Positions 36,766-44,181 of a stretch of 45,276 nucleotides of DNA are shown here, in pieces. The DNA comes from Candidatus Gastranaerophilales bacterium. GTDB taxonomy: Bacteria; Cyanobacteriota; Vampirovibrionia; Gastranaerophilales; Gastranaerophilaceae. The stretch is from NCBI GenBank assembly GCA_944322935.1, contig CALUQO010000019.1:1-45276 (forward strand), given 5' to 3'. The number at the start of each line of letters is the position of its first letter. Position 1 is the first letter of the stretch. Below the pieces are notes generated by a model. It did not search any database, was not told the origin of the DNA, and saw only the letters and a list, made by a program, of their open reading frames with translations. Made by a program: the position numbers and the translations under genes.

Positions 36766-38631
36766 TTAACTATATGAAATATCAAATACAACACATTCGC
36801 CTATATAAATATTTTCAATATGAAAAATCAGGTTGTTTATATCCGCACAAATTTCGTCGTAACGTGAGTTTGTGTAAACCATAGCTGCATTATTAATTTG
36901 GGATTTTAGACTTATTGTTATCTCCTGTTTTTGGGGATTTAAATTAGCTGCAAACAAAAGACAGGGTTTGTTGTCTTTTGAATACAACCAGACAAGAGAG
37001 CTGTCGTTGTCTGATTGTAACAACTCCATGGCAGAATTATCTATGATTTGTTTATAAATAACATACAGCTTACGCATAGCAGAAATCTGTTCAAAGAGTG
37101 TGTCATTATCACCCCATTTATAAGGCAGTGTCTGTTTTTTAACGTATTCATTAGAAAATTCATTTTCATTTTGAGGCTTTAAACATTTGGTTTCATAGCC
37201 CATTCCCGTATAAGAAGGCAAATTCAAAAACATAGAGATAAAATACCTTAGCTCATTTGCTTCTTCTGATTGAAAATACTGAGAATGTTCCTTTAAATCC
37301 CCGTCATTTGAGAATGTGCACAGGCAAGGAAAAAACGGAAAATTTTTTCTGAACGGATTTAAAAAGTCGTCTACAGTATTAACAAACTCTTTGTTGAGAT
37401 ATTGAAAATTTAAGTTACCAAGAACTATATCAACTTTTTTGTTAATCATGTCAGAAATACCGTTGATATAATACGTGTTATAAAAAGCCTCAGCAAGAAC
37501 AGCAAAATAGGGTGCAGTAGTATGTATTTTATCTTTTACATATGCCCACATTTCCCGCGATTCATGCACGTTTTTTTCGGATTCAGCGTGAGAGTGTGCA
37601 ATCTGGTTATGTGCCATATCAGCTCTTAAAAAATCAAAATTATATTCTTTTTGAAATTTCAATATTTTATCACTGAAATAATCCCACACAATTTGGTTTA
37701 TCCCGTTTTTTACAGGATATCCGTCGCTGTCTGTTTTATACCACTTGTATGGTGTAATGCAGCCGATTACTTTGGCTGACTGTGAACGATTATCAACATC
37801 AAATACCGCCCAGTCCGAATCTTCGTTTCGCTCAATTCTTTTAAAAACTACGGGGCGCATAGGCGAATGTTCCGTTACCGGAAGAGGCTCTAGCCCGGCA
37901 GCTCTTATCTTTTTCATCAAATTTATTCTTATTGAAGTTCTGTCAGAGTTTTTGGGAAATATAAAACCTTCCCTTTCACATTCACTCAACTCAAACAAAT
38001 TAGCCGGAGCGTTTGTTTCTTTTACAATGATATCTTCAACATCTTTGTAAATTGTATTGTAATCAATTTGTGGAGGAAACAATTGAGCTGTCTTTTGTTT
38101 GTTTAGCTTTGCCCACTCAAAAAACGCCGGATTCATCATTGTTATTTCAGAAAAATTATCAACATGCGGCAATGCGTCAAAACCAACAACCTTGCCGGCA
38201 GCATGCAGAATATTTACAACAAACTTTAATTGTTTTTCGGGAGTGTCATACCCCAGAGAAGATAAATCCTTATCCAAAAACTCCTCATTTAAACGCCAAG
38301 AAGTTTGTACATAAAGACTTCCCTTATCACCCGTAGTCCAAAGTGGCATAATGTGTATTGCATTTTCAGGGAAAGTCAGGGCATATTTTACAATCCCCCA
38401 AAAAGTTTTTGTTATGCGAGGATTAATACCTATAATTTTTATAGTTTTGCACCATTGAGTATCTTTTATGTCCGCAACCGGAGACGGATACGGCGTTGTT
38501 ATATCCATAGCTTTTGCCAGTGTTTCTTTTCCGATAATTTTTTTTAGCATTGCAAAAGATTGTTTGAACGACTTGTCCAAACAATCTTTTGGTTTTATAG
38601 GATAAAAGTTGAATTTATTTAATATTGCCAT
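36766..38631 (-). CDS. GH13-like glycoside hydrolase/glucanotransferase
   Basis: A 621-residue protein with the four alpha-amylase-family regions in recognisable form: region I GFDALPHVDN (150-159), region II FLRADMAHN with nucleophile D338, region III VLAEAF with acid/base E381, and region IV FSNDGD with D443 (Asn442 where His is usual). LPSYTGMGYE resembles the late barrel strand before the C-terminal beta domain (about 545-621). About 140 residues are inserted between regions I and II. LAEAF is reminiscent of GlgE-type enzymes, but the subfamily is open. No signal peptide. It overlaps the coiled-coil gene by 13 bases and is last in a four-gene operon. Confidence 0.7.
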   Translation of the reverse strand: MAILNKFNFYPIKPKDCLDKSFKQSFAMLKKIIGKETLAKAMDITTPYPSPVADIKDTQWCKTIKIIGINPRITKTFWGIVKYALTFPENAIHIMPLWTTGDKGSLYVQTSWRLNEEFLDKDLSSLGYDTPEKQLKFVVNILHAAGKVVGFDALPHVDNFSEITMMNPAFFEWAKLNKQKTAQLFPPQIDYNTIYKDVEDIIVKETNAPANLFELSECEREGFIFPKNSDRTSIRINLMKKIRAAGLEPLPVTEHSPMRPVVFKRIERNEDSDWAVFDVDNRSQSAKVIGCITPYKWYKTDSDGYPVKNGINQIVWDYFSDKILKFQKEYNFDFLRADMAHNQIAHSHAESEKNVHESREMWAYVKDKIHTTAPYFAVLAEAFYNTYYINGISDMINKKVDIVLGNLNFQYLNKEFVNTVDDFLNPFRKNFPFFPCLCTFSNDGDLKEHSQYFQSEEANELRYFISMFLNLPSYTGMGYETKCLKPQNENEFSNEYVKKQTLPYKWGDNDTLFEQISAMRKLYVIYKQIIDNSAMELLQSDNDSSLVWLYSKDNKPCLLFAANLNPQKQEITISLKSQINNAAMVYTNSRYDEICADINNLIFHIENIYIGECVVFDISYS

Positions 38632-39977
38632 TCTTCAATGTTGTTCCGGTAAAATTCTTCCATTTTCGGATAGAAGGTTTTAATTTCTTCTGCTTTGCAT
38701 TTAAAATGTGCCTCCAGTTCAGGCATGCTCTTTCTGTATCTGTCAATTAAAAGCTGATGCTCGTGATTTGCTTTTTCTCCCTGCATAATATTCAGGTTTA
38801 TCTTATTCAATCTGTCTTGCAAAACACTCAGCTTCTGAGACAATCTGATACTTTCCGCTTTTGCTTCGTCTTTTTCTTTTATTTCTTCTGATTTTTTATA
38901 TTCAGCAGTCATTCTGTCATATTGGCTGTAGTCGCTATACGGAGCATTTACCTTTTCGTCGTTTACTTCTTTCCACTCCCTGGCTCTTTGTATCTGTTTT
39001 TCAATATCAGCTTTTTGTTTTTTGAAATCATTCAACAGCCTGTTATTTCTTGCAATTGAATCACTGGAATTTTGTATACCTCTTTTTTGGTATTCAATTT
39101 TGTTTCTTGCATTATCTCTGTCCATAAACATCAACCCGACCTCATCAAATATCTTAAAGGCCTGTATTGCTTTTTTCTGCTGCATTTTTGAATGGTTTAT
39201 CCTGTCTTGATAATATCCGATTTTTTCATTTAGTTTGTCATATTTTTGAGCGTTAATACTAAAGAAATAATCAGCCTTTTCTTTTCCATTTTTAATATCC
39301 TCTACCTCCCAAGGGTATTCCTGTGTTTTTTCATCGTAATCCTGTTTATATCCCGCAGAGACGTCATATTCATGCTGAAAGTTATTTCTTTCTTCCAATA
39401 GTTTTTGCAGTTCTTTTTTGTCAGCCTGTTCCAGCCTGTAATAGTATTCCGCAAGTGTTTTAAAGTTTTGTCCGTAATTATTAGCATTGCGATTTACGTT
39501 GAAATAATTTTCTCTGATTTCATCCGGGGTCGGATATTTAGGTCTGTTGTCATAAACGATATAATCGTGATCTCGTTTTGTCTGCTCCGATACATATTCC
39601 TCCGGATCGGCATAATATACCCTATCGGTTGTATAGTCATTGTGTGTTTTTTCAATTGATGAATTTGCGTGACTCAATGGATTTTCACCAATTTTTTGTT
39701 CTATGGGCATATAATTTGAATCACTGTAAGAAGATGTCGGTTCGCGCCCAACGGCAACAACGCCGGCTGTACCGATTTGTCTTCGTATAATATTTTGCGT
39801 TTGGCCTTTAAAAGAAATTCCCGATAAGAAATTGCTTTTTATTGCGTCAGAGGCCTTAGCTGTCTCCACAAAAGTTTTATTATCATTTGCTCCAAAGCTT
39901 GTTAAATCCTGTTCTTTTTGTTGAGTATTTGTTCTGGTTCTTTTTACGTTTAATGGAGAAATTTTACTTATTTTCAT
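38619..39977 (-). CDS. coiled-coil protein with N-terminal SFKG motif
   Basis: A 452-residue unrecognised protein. The basic N-terminus has LTSFGAND (27-29) and GISFKGQTQ (SFKG 55-58). Then comes a Tyr/Asp/Pro-rich stretch and, from about 175, long charged coiled coils with many Glu/Lys/Arg. The ribosome site GGAG lies inside the last codons of the radical SAM gene, and only one base separates that stop from this ATG. It is therefore made together with the radical SAM/SPASM enzyme and could be its substrate, scaffold or partner (inference). Confidence 0.7.
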   Translation of the reverse strand: MKISKISPLNVKRTRTNTQQKEQDLTSFGANDNKTFVETAKASDAIKSNFLSGISFKGQTQNIIRRQIGTAGVVAVGREPTSSYSDSNYMPIEQKIGENPLSHANSSIEKTHNDYTTDRVYYADPEEYVSEQTKRDHDYIVYDNRPKYPTPDEIRENYFNVNRNANNYGQNFKTLAEYYYRLEQADKKELQKLLEERNNFQHEYDVSAGYKQDYDEKTQEYPWEVEDIKNGKEKADYFFSINAQKYDKLNEKIGYYQDRINHSKMQQKKAIQAFKIFDEVGLMFMDRDNARNKIEYQKRGIQNSSDSIARNNRLLNDFKKQKADIEKQIQRAREWKEVNDEKVNAPYSDYSQYDRMTAEYKKSEEIKEKDEAKAESIRLSQKLSVLQDRLNKINLNIMQGEKANHEHQLLIDRYRKSMPELEAHFKCKAEEIKTFYPKMEEFYRNNIEEWQY

Positions 39978-39978
39978 A

Positions 39979-41244
39979 TTACGCTCCTTTTAGTTCGCTG
40001 AATTTTGCGACAATTGTTTCGGTTTTTTGCAGATCTTTCACAGATGCAGGGGTAAAAGTTTCTATTGGTATAACCGGAGTCACATTTTTTATGGTTTTAT
40101 CTCTGTATTTGTCCAAGATGAATACACCGTTTTTAGATGAATTTATGTAGTTTATTTCATCAGGAAGACTAAGCAGCTTGCCGTTAACTTTTAAAACGGA
40201 ATCTTTTGCATATATAAAATTGCCCTTATAAAAATTACAGCATTTTGCGCAAATTGTAAATTTACCATTTTTACAAAGAGAATTTCTTAATCTGTTAGCT
40301 TTGTCATTGTTCCATATTGTCCAAAAATCTTCGTTATTGATATTGCCTATAATGTTACCGATACAGTTTGAGACATCCCCGTTCGAATGTATTGTGGGGT
40401 TAACCCACGGAGTGGTGCAAATTCTGCCGGCTCTGATTTCATCAAGGTTATTATCAAGATAATAATTTTCAATCTCTTCATCTTCCAGTGCAGGAAAAAC
40501 AAATGTCGTGGTCTTGCAAACATCTTTAAAGCTATCAATAGTTTTAATAAGTTTTTTTATGTAATCTTTATCCGTTTTATAAAATTTGGGAGGAATAAGT
40601 CCGCCCGAATAATTTTTATTTAGTCTTTCTCTCCACTGTATATTTGTGTGTTTGTTTAATTCTTCCGTAGAAAATTGCAGATGCTGAAATGTAAGCGTTT
40701 TAATATTTTTTTGCTGAATAAACATCAAAAAATTGGTCAGTTCATCAATATTGTCAGGCAGCATAACACAGTTTATACACAATTTTATTTTGCTTCCGGT
40801 TTTCTGGTACGCTTCAATTTTTTCAATGTTTTCCATAACCTTTTTAAAAGTACCTTTTTTGTTACGGATAGCATCGTGTGTGTCTTCCAATCCGTCAATG
40901 CTGATTGTTATTGTTGTATCTGTTTTGGCTATTTGTTCTAAGTATTTATCAAGCAAAACCCCGTTTGTAACAATTTGAACATTAAAGCCGTATTTTTGTG
41001 TCAGCTCAAAAAGCTTTGCAAAATCCCTGTATAACAATGGTTCTCCACCCATCAAAAGCATTTTTGGCTTTGGGTTTACATCACTAACAGACTCAAAAAA
41101 ATTTGCCCATTGTTTGACAGACATGTCTGCTGGTGCGTTTTGCTTAAATCCGTCACCATATTGAGTACACATTGAACAATTAAGATTACATCTGTACGTA
41201 AGACTTAAAATAAATTCCATTTCAAACGGGAGTTCTAAGACCAT
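39979..41244 (-). CDS. radical SAM/SPASM-domain enzyme
   Basis: A 421-residue enzyme with an intact radical SAM core: C19, C23 and C26 in YRCNLNCSMC, MGGEP (65-69), IVTNG and SIDG. The SPASM-like C-terminal half has C276 (RICTTPW), C294 (SNCIG), C324 and C332-C335-C336 (TICAKCC) for auxiliary Fe-S clusters. An extra 70-residue tail follows. SPASM proteins usually modify peptides or proteins, or mature enzymes. GGAGG six bases before the ATG sits inside the HAD gene, which it overlaps by 10 bases. The substrate is unknown; operon partners are candidates. Confidence 0.85.
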   Translation of the reverse strand: MVLELPFEMEFILSLTYRCNLNCSMCTQYGDGFKQNAPADMSVKQWANFFESVSDVNPKPKMLLMGGEPLLYRDFAKLFELTQKYGFNVQIVTNGVLLDKYLEQIAKTDTTITISIDGLEDTHDAIRNKKGTFKKVMENIEKIEAYQKTGSKIKLCINCVMLPDNIDELTNFLMFIQQKNIKTLTFQHLQFSTEELNKHTNIQWRERLNKNYSGGLIPPKFYKTDKDYIKKLIKTIDSFKDVCKTTTFVFPALEDEEIENYYLDNNLDEIRAGRICTTPWVNPTIHSNGDVSNCIGNIIGNINNEDFWTIWNNDKANRLRNSLCKNGKFTICAKCCNFYKGNFIYAKDSVLKVNGKLLSLPDEINYINSSKNGVFILDKYRDKTIKNVTPVIPIETFTPASVKDLQKTETIVAKFSELKGA

Positions 41245-42515
41245 ATTGAACCTCCGTCCATAAGTGAAGTATATAAATCCATACCCATGTCAAAAGAGTA
41301 TTCCGGGTTTTGCTCTGCATAGTCATACATTGCGGTTTTTATTGCCTTTAACAGTCCGTTGTCTTTGTCCGTTGAATCCGGTATGCAGATAATTTTATTT
41401 ATACCGTTTTCTCTTAGAATACGATTCATTTCTCTTAAGTTATCGAGTTTTGGGCTGCTGCCGACAATTATTGAATAAAAAGGCATTTCTTTGATTGCGG
41501 AAAGAATTTTATTATTATTTAAAAGCACCTGAGGCGGTATTGTTTTGTCAAACTGAAGCCCGTAAATATCAAGATAATTAAGCGGATTCAACATTTTTTC
41601 ATCATTGCCTTCGTCTCCAGCAGCAATAATCAGGTCATTTGTATTGTTAACAATAATATCATTCAGTGCTTTTTTTACATCATAAAGTTTTGAAATCTGG
41701 CTGTTATCCGGAGCAGGTTTTATAAACATTTTATTGCCCGGGACGATTTCCTTGTGTCCGTTCACTATCTGAGGACAATAACCGTTGTAATCCTCAGGAT
41801 AGTGTTTTACAACGGCATTAATATTGTTTTTGTGTAAATATTCTTCTATTTTTTCCTTAATACGTTCGGTCGGTATATTATTGGAAAACGCAATCTCTAT
41901 TGCATTATCTTCATCTTTTGTAAAAGAAACATAATTTTGGGCGTCCTCTGCAGACATTTTATCAAACTGAGATTCCAGCGAAATATCGCCGTAATCGTCT
42001 TTTGTTCTATTTACCGAAGATTCTATAAAAACAGGATTTTTAAACTCCTGTCTTATCATGTCCTTTATTGCAATTTTGAGTCTTAAAGAATCCCAGCCGT
42101 TAGCTGCACTTTGTACATCTTTTGATTTTTGTGTGTCCTTTTGCCACAAATTATCTTTTTTTACAAATCTGTCTCCGCCGTCTTTTGTTATAACAACATC
42201 GGGAGAATAGTAATTCAGGTGCTTATCTTTAAGTTTTTGCTCGACATATTTGTATTCCGACAAATTTCTTCCTGTTGTAATTGTTAACAAAACTTTACCT
42301 TTTGCAAGGTCAAAAAAGTCTTTCATTTTTCCGAAATAATCATTGAACAAAAATCTTCTTTCACTACCGTCTTGTAGCATATTATCATTACACATTTCCA
42401 TATGAGAAAACGGTGTATAAGTCTTGTCAAAATCCGTAAAAACACTGGTTTGACCGGATTTAAATGATATAGATGCTTTAGGGGATATATTAAATTTTAC
42501 TGGATTAATAAACAC
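41235..42515 (-). CDS. HAD-superfamily (Cof/sucrose-phosphatase-like) phosphatase
   Basis: A 426-residue protein. After a short N-terminus with SISFKSGQ (17-21) comes the HAD motif I DFDKT (28-32), motif II TTGR (80-83), a cap region of about 200 residues and motif IV GDEGND (300-305). A C-terminal region of about 100 residues is extra. The cap type points to sugar-phosphate substrates. The start is GTG 42515, six bases after GAGG; a TTG at 42527 overlaps that site. It is the first gene of the operon with the radical SAM, coiled-coil and GH13-like genes. Confidence 0.8.
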   Translation of the reverse strand: MFINPVKFNISPKASISFKSGQTSVFTDFDKTYTPFSHMEMCNDNMLQDGSERRFLFNDYFGKMKDFFDLAKGKVLLTITTGRNLSEYKYVEQKLKDKHLNYYSPDVVITKDGGDRFVKKDNLWQKDTQKSKDVQSAANGWDSLRLKIAIKDMIRQEFKNPVFIESSVNRTKDDYGDISLESQFDKMSAEDAQNYVSFTKDEDNAIEIAFSNNIPTERIKEKIEEYLHKNNINAVVKHYPEDYNGYCPQIVNGHKEIVPGNKMFIKPAPDNSQISKLYDVKKALNDIIVNNTNDLIIAAGDEGNDEKMLNPLNYLDIYGLQFDKTIPPQVLLNNNKILSAIKEMPFYSIIVGSSPKLDNLREMNRILRENGINKIICIPDSTDKDNGLLKAIKTAMYDYAEQNPEYSFDMGMDLYTSLMDGGSIWS

Positions 42516-42607
42516 AATAAACCTCAATACTTTTTCTGATAATAAAAAAAAAAATAACGGATTAAAAGAATTAATTCATTTTGATTTACAAAATGTTACA
42601 AGAGTAA

Positions 42608-42663: not shown

Positions 42664-44181
42664 ATGAGAGCTGCATCAATATCCGTATTGCCGGGGCAAT
42701 GCTACGGTAATGCCAGAGTCACAAGGCATTATCAATCATCGGCATGGAATACTTCTTTCTTGGGAAAAAATGCAAATTTACAACAAGATGTTTTTGTAAA
42801 ATCACAGCCTGATTACTTTAAGGCAAAATCTGTTTCTTTCAAAGGTACTTACAACCGGCAGGATGCCGAAAATCTTATTGACAGAATAAACGGCAAGCAG
42901 GCTGAGTCAAACGGCAAGGGCTTTCAAAGCGAATATTACAAAATAAATGAAGAATTCGGCTTAAAAGCGCCTAATCCGCAAGTTAAAGGTATATTTGCCG
43001 ATATAAACGGAGTAAACAACATTAAGGAATACGAAATTCTAAAAAGAATGCAGGGCATAGATCCGGATATTGCAGTCAAACCCGTTGATTTGATTAACAA
43101 ATACGGCAAACATTATCTGGTTATGGAACATTTGTCAGGCGCACACCCGTTTGATTCAAAACTTAATCAGGATAACTTGTCCGATATTATGAAAAAAACA
43201 TTCAAAATGGATATAAACGGGATTGTCCACAGTGACCTGCAAAGCGGGAATATAATTCTTGCGGCGGATAACAAAGCAAAATTTATAGATTTCGGTTCTT
43301 TTAGTATTTTGCAAAATAACGGAAGCTATATTTCATCAGATTGTATTGACGGAAACCATATTAAACACAGTGTGAATACAAATTCTCCGCTAATAGATAA
43401 ATTCAGAGCCGTATTTTACAACAATTCACCTGTTTTGGATATAAAAAATCATTCTGATAATCCTCATTTGAATATAAAATCAAATGCCTCCAATTTTGAA
43501 TTCAGAACAATTTATGACTATATAAAACATGACAGGGCCGAAAATCCTAAACAGTTTTTCGCGGATTATTTAAAAGTAAAATCAGTTGATTACCATACAC
43601 CAATGGTTGAATTTTTAGAAAAAATGGATATGTCGCTTAACGATATTGCTCAGTCTTCACAAAAGCAAAAGGCTCTAGATGCCGAAAGGGTATTTAAAAA
43701 TGTATTCGCAGCACCAAGCGAAAATGTGGCAAAAACAGAATTGGGTAAAATTCAGTTAAAATGGTTGATAAACGATTATCAAGGCGCCCACACAAAAGCG
43801 TTTGATTATTTCAACAAACTGATTAATCAAACACGGGAATATGCCCAAAATGCAGAAGGAATGGAGAAAGATTATTTTGAACTGGTGGCAAAACGACTTG
43901 ATTCTTTTACTGAAATGCTGAAAGATTCAAAATATCAGGGTGATGTATTAGAAGAAAAAGACGATGTTGTAAAAAAAGTCTTTGACAAAATTACACAAAA
44001 AATTGAAGAAAAAACAGAAAAAATAGTTGAAATGACAACCAAAAAGGCAGAGCAGCCCATGAGCAAAGCAGCTTTGTTTAACAAAAAGAATATATTTATT
44101 GCTTTAGGCGTTGCTGCGGTGGCTGCCTGCGGGGTTTGTTTAAACAAATCACTGAAATCAAAACATGCAAACATGTCATAA
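42664..44181 (+). CDS. membrane-anchored protein kinase-like protein
   Basis: A 505-residue protein. The N-terminal 60 residues end in SVSFKG (SFKG 58-61). A protein-kinase-like fold follows: Gly-rich segment GKGFQSEYYKI (84-94), probable ATP lysine K101 (GLKAP), helix C Glu about 122-124, hinge YLVMEHL, catalytic loop HSDLQSGN (189-196) and DFG (209-211). All key residues are present, with HSD replacing HRD. A helical region (about 290-460) leads to a single C-terminal membrane helix (477-494) and a basic tail. The orientation would put the kinase in the cytosol if tail-anchored. Divergent from the HAD/rSAM operon. Confidence 0.75.
   Translation: MRAASISVLPGQCYGNARVTRHYQSSAWNTSFLGKNANLQQDVFVKSQPDYFKAKSVSFKGTYNRQDAENLIDRINGKQAESNGKGFQSEYYKINEEFGLKAPNPQVKGIFADINGVNNIKEYEILKRMQGIDPDIAVKPVDLINKYGKHYLVMEHLSGAHPFDSKLNQDNLSDIMKKTFKMDINGIVHSDLQSGNIILAADNKAKFIDFGSFSILQNNGSYISSDCIDGNHIKHSVNTNSPLIDKFRAVFYNNSPVLDIKNHSDNPHLNIKSNASNFEFRTIYDYIKHDRAENPKQFFADYLKVKSVDYHTPMVEFLEKMDMSLNDIAQSSQKQKALDAERVFKNVFAAPSENVAKTELGKIQLKWLINDYQGAHTKAFDYFNKLINQTREYAQNAEGMEKDYFELVAKRLDSFTEMLKDSKYQGDVLEEKDDVVKKVFDKITQKIEEKTEKIVEMTTKKAEQPMSKAALFNKKNIFIALGVAAVAACGVCLNKSLKSKHANMS

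Follow-up and report, generated by a model that had tools for sequence, protein, structure and literature searches.

The window considered here is a stretch of 45,276 nucleotides from a Candidatus Gastranaerophilales bacterium, of an order of uncultured gut bacteria related to cyanobacteria. On the minus strand of the contig, between positions 36766 and 42515, it carries genes for a HAD-IIB phosphatase (HAD), a radical SAM/SPASM enzyme (rSAM), a coiled-coil protein (CC) and a GH13-type enzyme (GH13), whose open reading frame positions were confirmed, and beside them lies a divergent gene, KIN. The features are as follows, with the basis of each in brackets.

42664..44181, plus strand: KIN, protein-kinase-like, 505 aa (Pkinase match and invariant kinase residues)
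41235..42515, minus strand: HAD-IIB phosphatase, GTG start (invariant motif residues and AF2 fold)
39979..41244, minus strand: rSAM, radical SAM/SPASM enzyme, 421 aa (PF04055 and PF13186 above cut-off)
41167..41190, minus strand: CxxxCxxC 4Fe-4S motif of rSAM (alignment)
39982..40230, minus strand: C-terminal extension of rSAM, residues 339-421 (HMM search)
38619..39977, minus strand: CC, 452 aa, with a leader-like N-terminus, a YxADPxE block and a coiled coil (alignments, heptad periodicity)
39804..39839, minus strand: leader core of CC, KSNFLSGISFKG, residues 47-58 (nine-row alignment)
36766..38631, minus strand: GH13-type enzyme with intact catalytic residues (alignment, profile and fold)

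An earlier note on this DNA had described the four minus-strand genes as overlapping or nearly touching, and this was confirmed: HAD and rSAM overlap by 10 bases, rSAM and CC are separated by one base, and CC and GH13 overlap by 13 bases, and these values (-10, +1 and -13) recur in six orthologous clusters from the window's genus (L031, L032, L033, L096, L097 and L098). Several clusters from other genera have comparably tight junctions. Values of dN/dS ranged from 0.03 to 0.16 across the cassette genes (0.03-0.07 for rSAM; two dS values were saturated and gave no computable ratio) and, taken with the recurring junctions, indicate that the cassette genes are real and under selection, not chance reading frames. 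The GTG at 42515, which the earlier note had taken as the HAD start, is the best placement; it lies behind TTGAGG, and there is an in-frame TTG at 42527. GGAGG is present upstream of rSAM and AGGAG upstream of CC. Promoter and terminator scans gave matches at or near chance, and no Rfam families or tRNAs were found within the window.

The description as a four-gene set was right about the linkage of those genes and missed KIN, which is separated from HAD by 136 bp, adjoins it in nearly all clusters and belongs to the unit. The core thus consists of five genes (KIN, HAD, rSAM, CC and GH13), with two optional ones: in L033, L034, L036, L038, L100, L105 and L108, GH13 is followed by genes for a class I methyltransferase (MT; a single marginal match in the PDB) and a SPASM-only protein, neither of which occurs in the window genome or in the genomes closest to it. 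Gene order is mostly kept across clusters. In G288 (L100:7112-19055), four CC paralogues of 182-498 aa occur in one cluster of rearranged order (CC, rSAM, CC, GH13, MT, SPASM, KIN, HAD, CC, CC), and in G302 the cassette is intact apart from rSAM, which is split over two reading frames (L102:7671-8878).

The presence of the cassette is close to all-or-none. Among 37 compared genomes, rSAM was found in 21, spread over several genera, and every one of the 21 also has CC and GH13; HAD and KIN occur together in an identical 19 of these 21, both being absent from G107 (where rSAM lies on a different contig) and G226. When 146 genomes of the order were surveyed, rSAM orthologues (E < 1e-100) were found in eight, and the same eight have a GH13 orthologue. 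Across 383 genomes GH13 (E < 1e-150) was present in 26, accompanied by rSAM in 21 and by CC in 25; the GH13 genomes lacking rSAM are G212, G217, G232, G372 and G225, all except G232 retaining CC, and in G154 CC is found alone. G212 has only a degraded HAD remnant left, upstream of CC-GH13 (L099:7400-7930). Scattering or independent absence of the genes in close relatives, which the earlier note had set against its own idea of a single system, was therefore mostly not seen, the exceptions being G107, G226 and the five rSAM-less GH13 genomes. In the genus of the window the set is present in 11 genomes and absent from 11. For KIN, HAD, rSAM and GH13, correlations between the distance matrices lie at 0.93-0.98. 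A scan of 84,980 bacterial and archaeal species with two peptide patterns, which sets a lower bound, found at least 27 loci, all in records of Gastranaerophilales, Cyanobacteria or bacterium bins.

The cassette moves horizontally between genera as a unit. A 7.2-kb block bounded by the 3' ends of KIN and GH13 has 92-96% DNA identity among L037, L102 (g18), L104 (g17) and L103 (g22), with unrelated flanks, whereas GlgA (glycogen synthase) from the same genera has only 75.7-77.7% identity; it is this disparity that points to transfer of the whole. L103 and L104 have 11 kb in common at 99.9%, which may reflect recent transfer or the mixing of bins. In G151 and G294 the cassette is followed directly, on its downstream side, by genes of the Mu-like phage transposition type (ATPase, integrase-like; L103:11876-16080), as judged by eye. 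A viral origin for the cassette was considered and rejected, no relatives of rSAM or GH13 having been found in viral contigs.

With Radical_SAM (PF04055, 95.6 bits) and SPASM (PF13186, 32.9 bits) both above the gathering cut-off, and with C19, C23 and C26 of the CxxxCxxC motif, MGGEPLL and five cysteines of the SPASM region all invariant in the alignment, rSAM is on sequence grounds a member of the radical SAM/SPASM superfamily. Among 25 NCBIfam models listed for named families (NirJ, MoaA, WgkB, YhhB, SkfB, PqqE and others), none reached its cut-off, the best score being 88.6 bits against a curated cut-off of 515. Profile comparison with solved structures gave matches to SkfB (E 7e-21), a peptide maturase, and to BlsE (E 3e-13), a cytosylglucuronate decarboxylase and thus a radical SAM enzyme that acts on a nucleoside sugar. 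The plasmid relatives among the matches listed were generic only, at below 30% identity. An HMM search of 1732 open reading frames in the compared loci found the C-terminal extension of rSAM (residues 339-421) elsewhere only in the SPASM-only paralogue, which has lost the radical SAM cysteines; none of the remaining rSAM paralogues of the order in those loci has this extension.

CC varies from 180 to 530 aa across clusters, shows heptad periodicity over residues 121-340 and accompanies every rSAM, with up to four copies per cluster. Its best-conserved stretch is the leader (consensus K-x-x-F-L-S-x-I-S-F-x-G), in which K47, F50, L51, S52, S55, F56 and G58 are invariant in a nine-row alignment. 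The S-F-x-G part is kept in 18 of 19 members of the CC family, at 20-47% identity, the remaining one having A-F-x-G; K-x-x-F-L-[SA] is retained mainly alongside rSAM, a correlation confounded by phylogeny, and the rSAM-positive CCs of L107 and L109 have L in place of F in the leader. Each rSAM genome tested had the full leader only in its cassette CC genes, and extra matches to the DNA pattern came at about the control rate; motif statistics covered about 400 kb of the window genome, together with loci from relatives. The single cysteine of CC is at position 427 and there is none in the leader; thioether chemistry of the sactipeptide or ranthipeptide kind on the leader was rejected on these grounds. 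As CC is kept in genomes without rSAM, its leader must have at least one role independent of that enzyme.

HAD belongs, on its motifs I-IV and a predicted fold with cap, to the HAD-IIB group. D32/D34, T84/T85, K280 and G304-D305..N308-D309 are invariant (numbering counted from the TTG at 42527), and in the AF2 model (pLDDT 83) the HAD-IIB fold is clear, closest to sucrose-phosphatase (1s2o, Z 16.2; the next match 13.9). A profile search of PDB sequences with HAD gave no match, the fold search alone having succeeded. All the catalytic motifs and the fold are those of HAD-IIB sugar phosphatases such as sucrose-, trehalose-6- and mannosyl-3-phosphoglycerate phosphatase, but unlike these HAD has a fused, disordered N-terminus with an SFK[AS]G motif, and it scores below the TIGR01484 cut-off (24.8 against 41.8 bits). 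KIN (Pkinase 31.8 bits; kinase sequences E 1e-8) is to be regarded as protein-kinase-like to judge by its invariant K93, E122, D191, N196 and D209, corresponding to the Lys, Glu, HxD, Asn and DFG residues; it has an N-terminal VSFKG motif and, by eye, a C-terminal transmembrane segment.

No Pfam family was matched by GH13 at E 0.1, the alpha-amylase model included, yet its profile led to the Thermotoga maritima maltosyltransferase (1gju, E 2e-4), which was also the best fold match (E 3e-15) of an AF2 model of modest quality (pLDDT 65). Regions I-IV are invariant at D152/H156, R336/D338, E381 and N442/D443/D445, and the modelled TIM barrel together with the catalytic residues D338, E381 and D443/D445, which supply the Asp nucleophile, Glu acid/base and Asp stabiliser expected of GH13, assigns it to the family. 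The likeness to GlgE structures (Z about 16) is one of modelled fold only. Divergent relatives of about 1220 aa occur in L112, L113 and L114, and both of those scanned (L112 and L114) have starch-synthase/glycosyltransferase (GT5) domains C-terminal to the GH13 part; in L112 the gene after the fusion is again GT5-like. In L114 (11397-14003), too, a dual-specificity phosphatase domain is joined to a starch-synthase-like GT5 protein bearing an N-terminal SFTG motif, an arrangement that recalls glucan phosphatases.

The cassette matches no defining model of a known RiPP, viperin or glycogen system. The GlgE pathway consists of TreS, maltokinase, GlgE and GlgB. With it, and with the T. maritima enzyme, the cassette shares a GH13 fold, the catalytic residues and the presence of a kinase, but it lacks TreS and GlgB, KIN is protein-kinase-like and is not called as a maltokinase, rSAM, CC and HAD are additional, and GH13 identity is at most 16%. 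SPASM maturation cassettes (SkfB, WgkB, YhhB, PapB) offer a different parallel, in that rSAM adjoins a protein, sometimes multicopy, whose N-terminal leader is conserved while its C-terminus varies, and some clusters add a degenerate SPASM-only partner; CC, however, is long and coiled-coil, and there is no RRE, Cys-rich core, exporter or protease. The cassette does not qualify as a RiPP system, as CC is in no cluster of precursor-peptide size and no RRE or transporter was recognised among the cassette genes. The component superfamilies are known; their combination is new to the family libraries and papers searched, the literature having yielded nothing on this set (searches of Gastranaerophilales with radical SAM, N-terminal motif or glycogen, and of radical SAM/SPASM with glycogen and coiled coil).

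That this is a carbohydrate cassette, as the earlier note had suggested, seems probable, given the likeness of GH13 to the Thermotoga maltosyltransferase and GlgE, the fusion of its relatives to starch synthase and the resemblance of HAD to sucrose-phosphatase. We picture a mobile, order-restricted alpha-glucan (maltooligosaccharide) cassette, an explanation whose overall chance we rate at somewhat under even. GH13, for which action as a transferase is an evenly balanced proposition, would be a maltosyl- or glucanotransferase of the GlgE/Thermotoga type that builds or remodels alpha-1,4-glucan docked on CC. KIN and HAD would form an opposing kinase-phosphatase pair, acting on a pathway sugar phosphate or on CC or GH13. 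rSAM would carry out a radical modification of the conserved CC leader, assisted in some strains by SPASM-only, and modified CC would become a competent scaffold; since the leader has no cysteine, the modification would not be a Cys thioether. Action of rSAM on CC, proposed in the earlier note, can be put forward only tentatively: it is plausible and compatible with the cassette-specific leader, but the strongest objection is that CC and GH13 persist without rSAM. Taken at its most specific, with rSAM modifying the S-F-x-G leader of a kinase-phosphatase-controlled scaffold that organises an alpha-glucan transferase on a mobile cassette, the idea is on balance unlikely. If true, it would bring radical-based protein maturation into polysaccharide metabolism. 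In any event, radical SAM chemistry and an amylase-fold enzyme are brought together here in one compact, transferable set, and with a candidate substrate (CC) and site (its leader) named, an uncultured gut order offers an orphan SPASM enzyme whose function is open to direct test.

The same persistence of CC beside GH13 suits a close rival, doubtful in itself, in which rSAM acts on carbohydrate and the cassette makes an unusual oligo- or polysaccharide that is radically modified and, in some strains, also O-methylated: KIN and HAD would handle phosphosugars, GH13 maltosyl transfer and MT methylation, with CC organising the enzymes. GH13, the sugar-phosphatase fold of HAD and MT are all compatible with carbohydrate, and there is the profile match to BlsE; against this, the peptide maturase SkfB is the better sequence match among solved structures, nucleotide-sugar enzymes and ordinary glycosyltransferases are missing from the cassette, and the CC leader is specific to the cassette. 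It is rather improbable that the unit is in essence regulatory, with KIN and HAD reversibly phosphorylating and dephosphorylating CC or GH13 and rSAM maturing one of them or a metal centre. The joint presence or absence of HAD and KIN, and the complete set of protein-kinase motifs in KIN, would fit, and by analogy the Ser/Thr kinase PknB phosphorylates and regulates GlgE in mycobacteria (PMC11046441), but most HAD-IIB enzymes of such a fold dephosphorylate small molecules. The patchy occurrence of the cassette and its passage between genera might even suggest a defence or mobile-element accessory island, a viperin-like rSAM with a kinase, carried on phages or islands, and in PADLOC the pVip models do match rSAM (E 3e-25) and the PD-T4-6 models, weakly, KIN. 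We think this very improbable indeed: the PADLOC matches are generic ones to an rSAM and a kinase, rSAM has a SPASM region and scores 77 bits against a viperin cut-off of 180 (the order's ordinary rSAM paralogues also falling below it), the viral contigs are silent, as noted above, and an amylase and a sugar phosphatase do not fit. Both a defence system and viperin were accordingly rejected.

Finally, two observations extend beyond the cassette. The motif [STN]F[KQ]G recurs in its proteins, at about residue 57 of KIN, residues 55-58 of CC and residues 21-25 of HAD, and among 579 non-redundant open reading frames 17 instances were found within 80 residues of the N-terminus, at densities of 0.17-0.69 per 1000 residues by bin compared with about 0.03 past residue 200 (altered control motifs gave a flat distribution). 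It lies N-terminal to varied domains (PLD, exonuclease, GT5, alpha-amylase and kinase) and has the look, as far as sequence goes, of a tag used across the lineage for targeting or docking. CC paralogues also adjoin an AmrS-like (AmmeMemoRadiSam) radical SAM gene in L051:7104-10627 (G000:C6) and L155:1263-3432, and in L051 a Memo/AMMECR1-like gene lies beside the pair (names assigned by eye); this gives the CC family a second radical SAM association.
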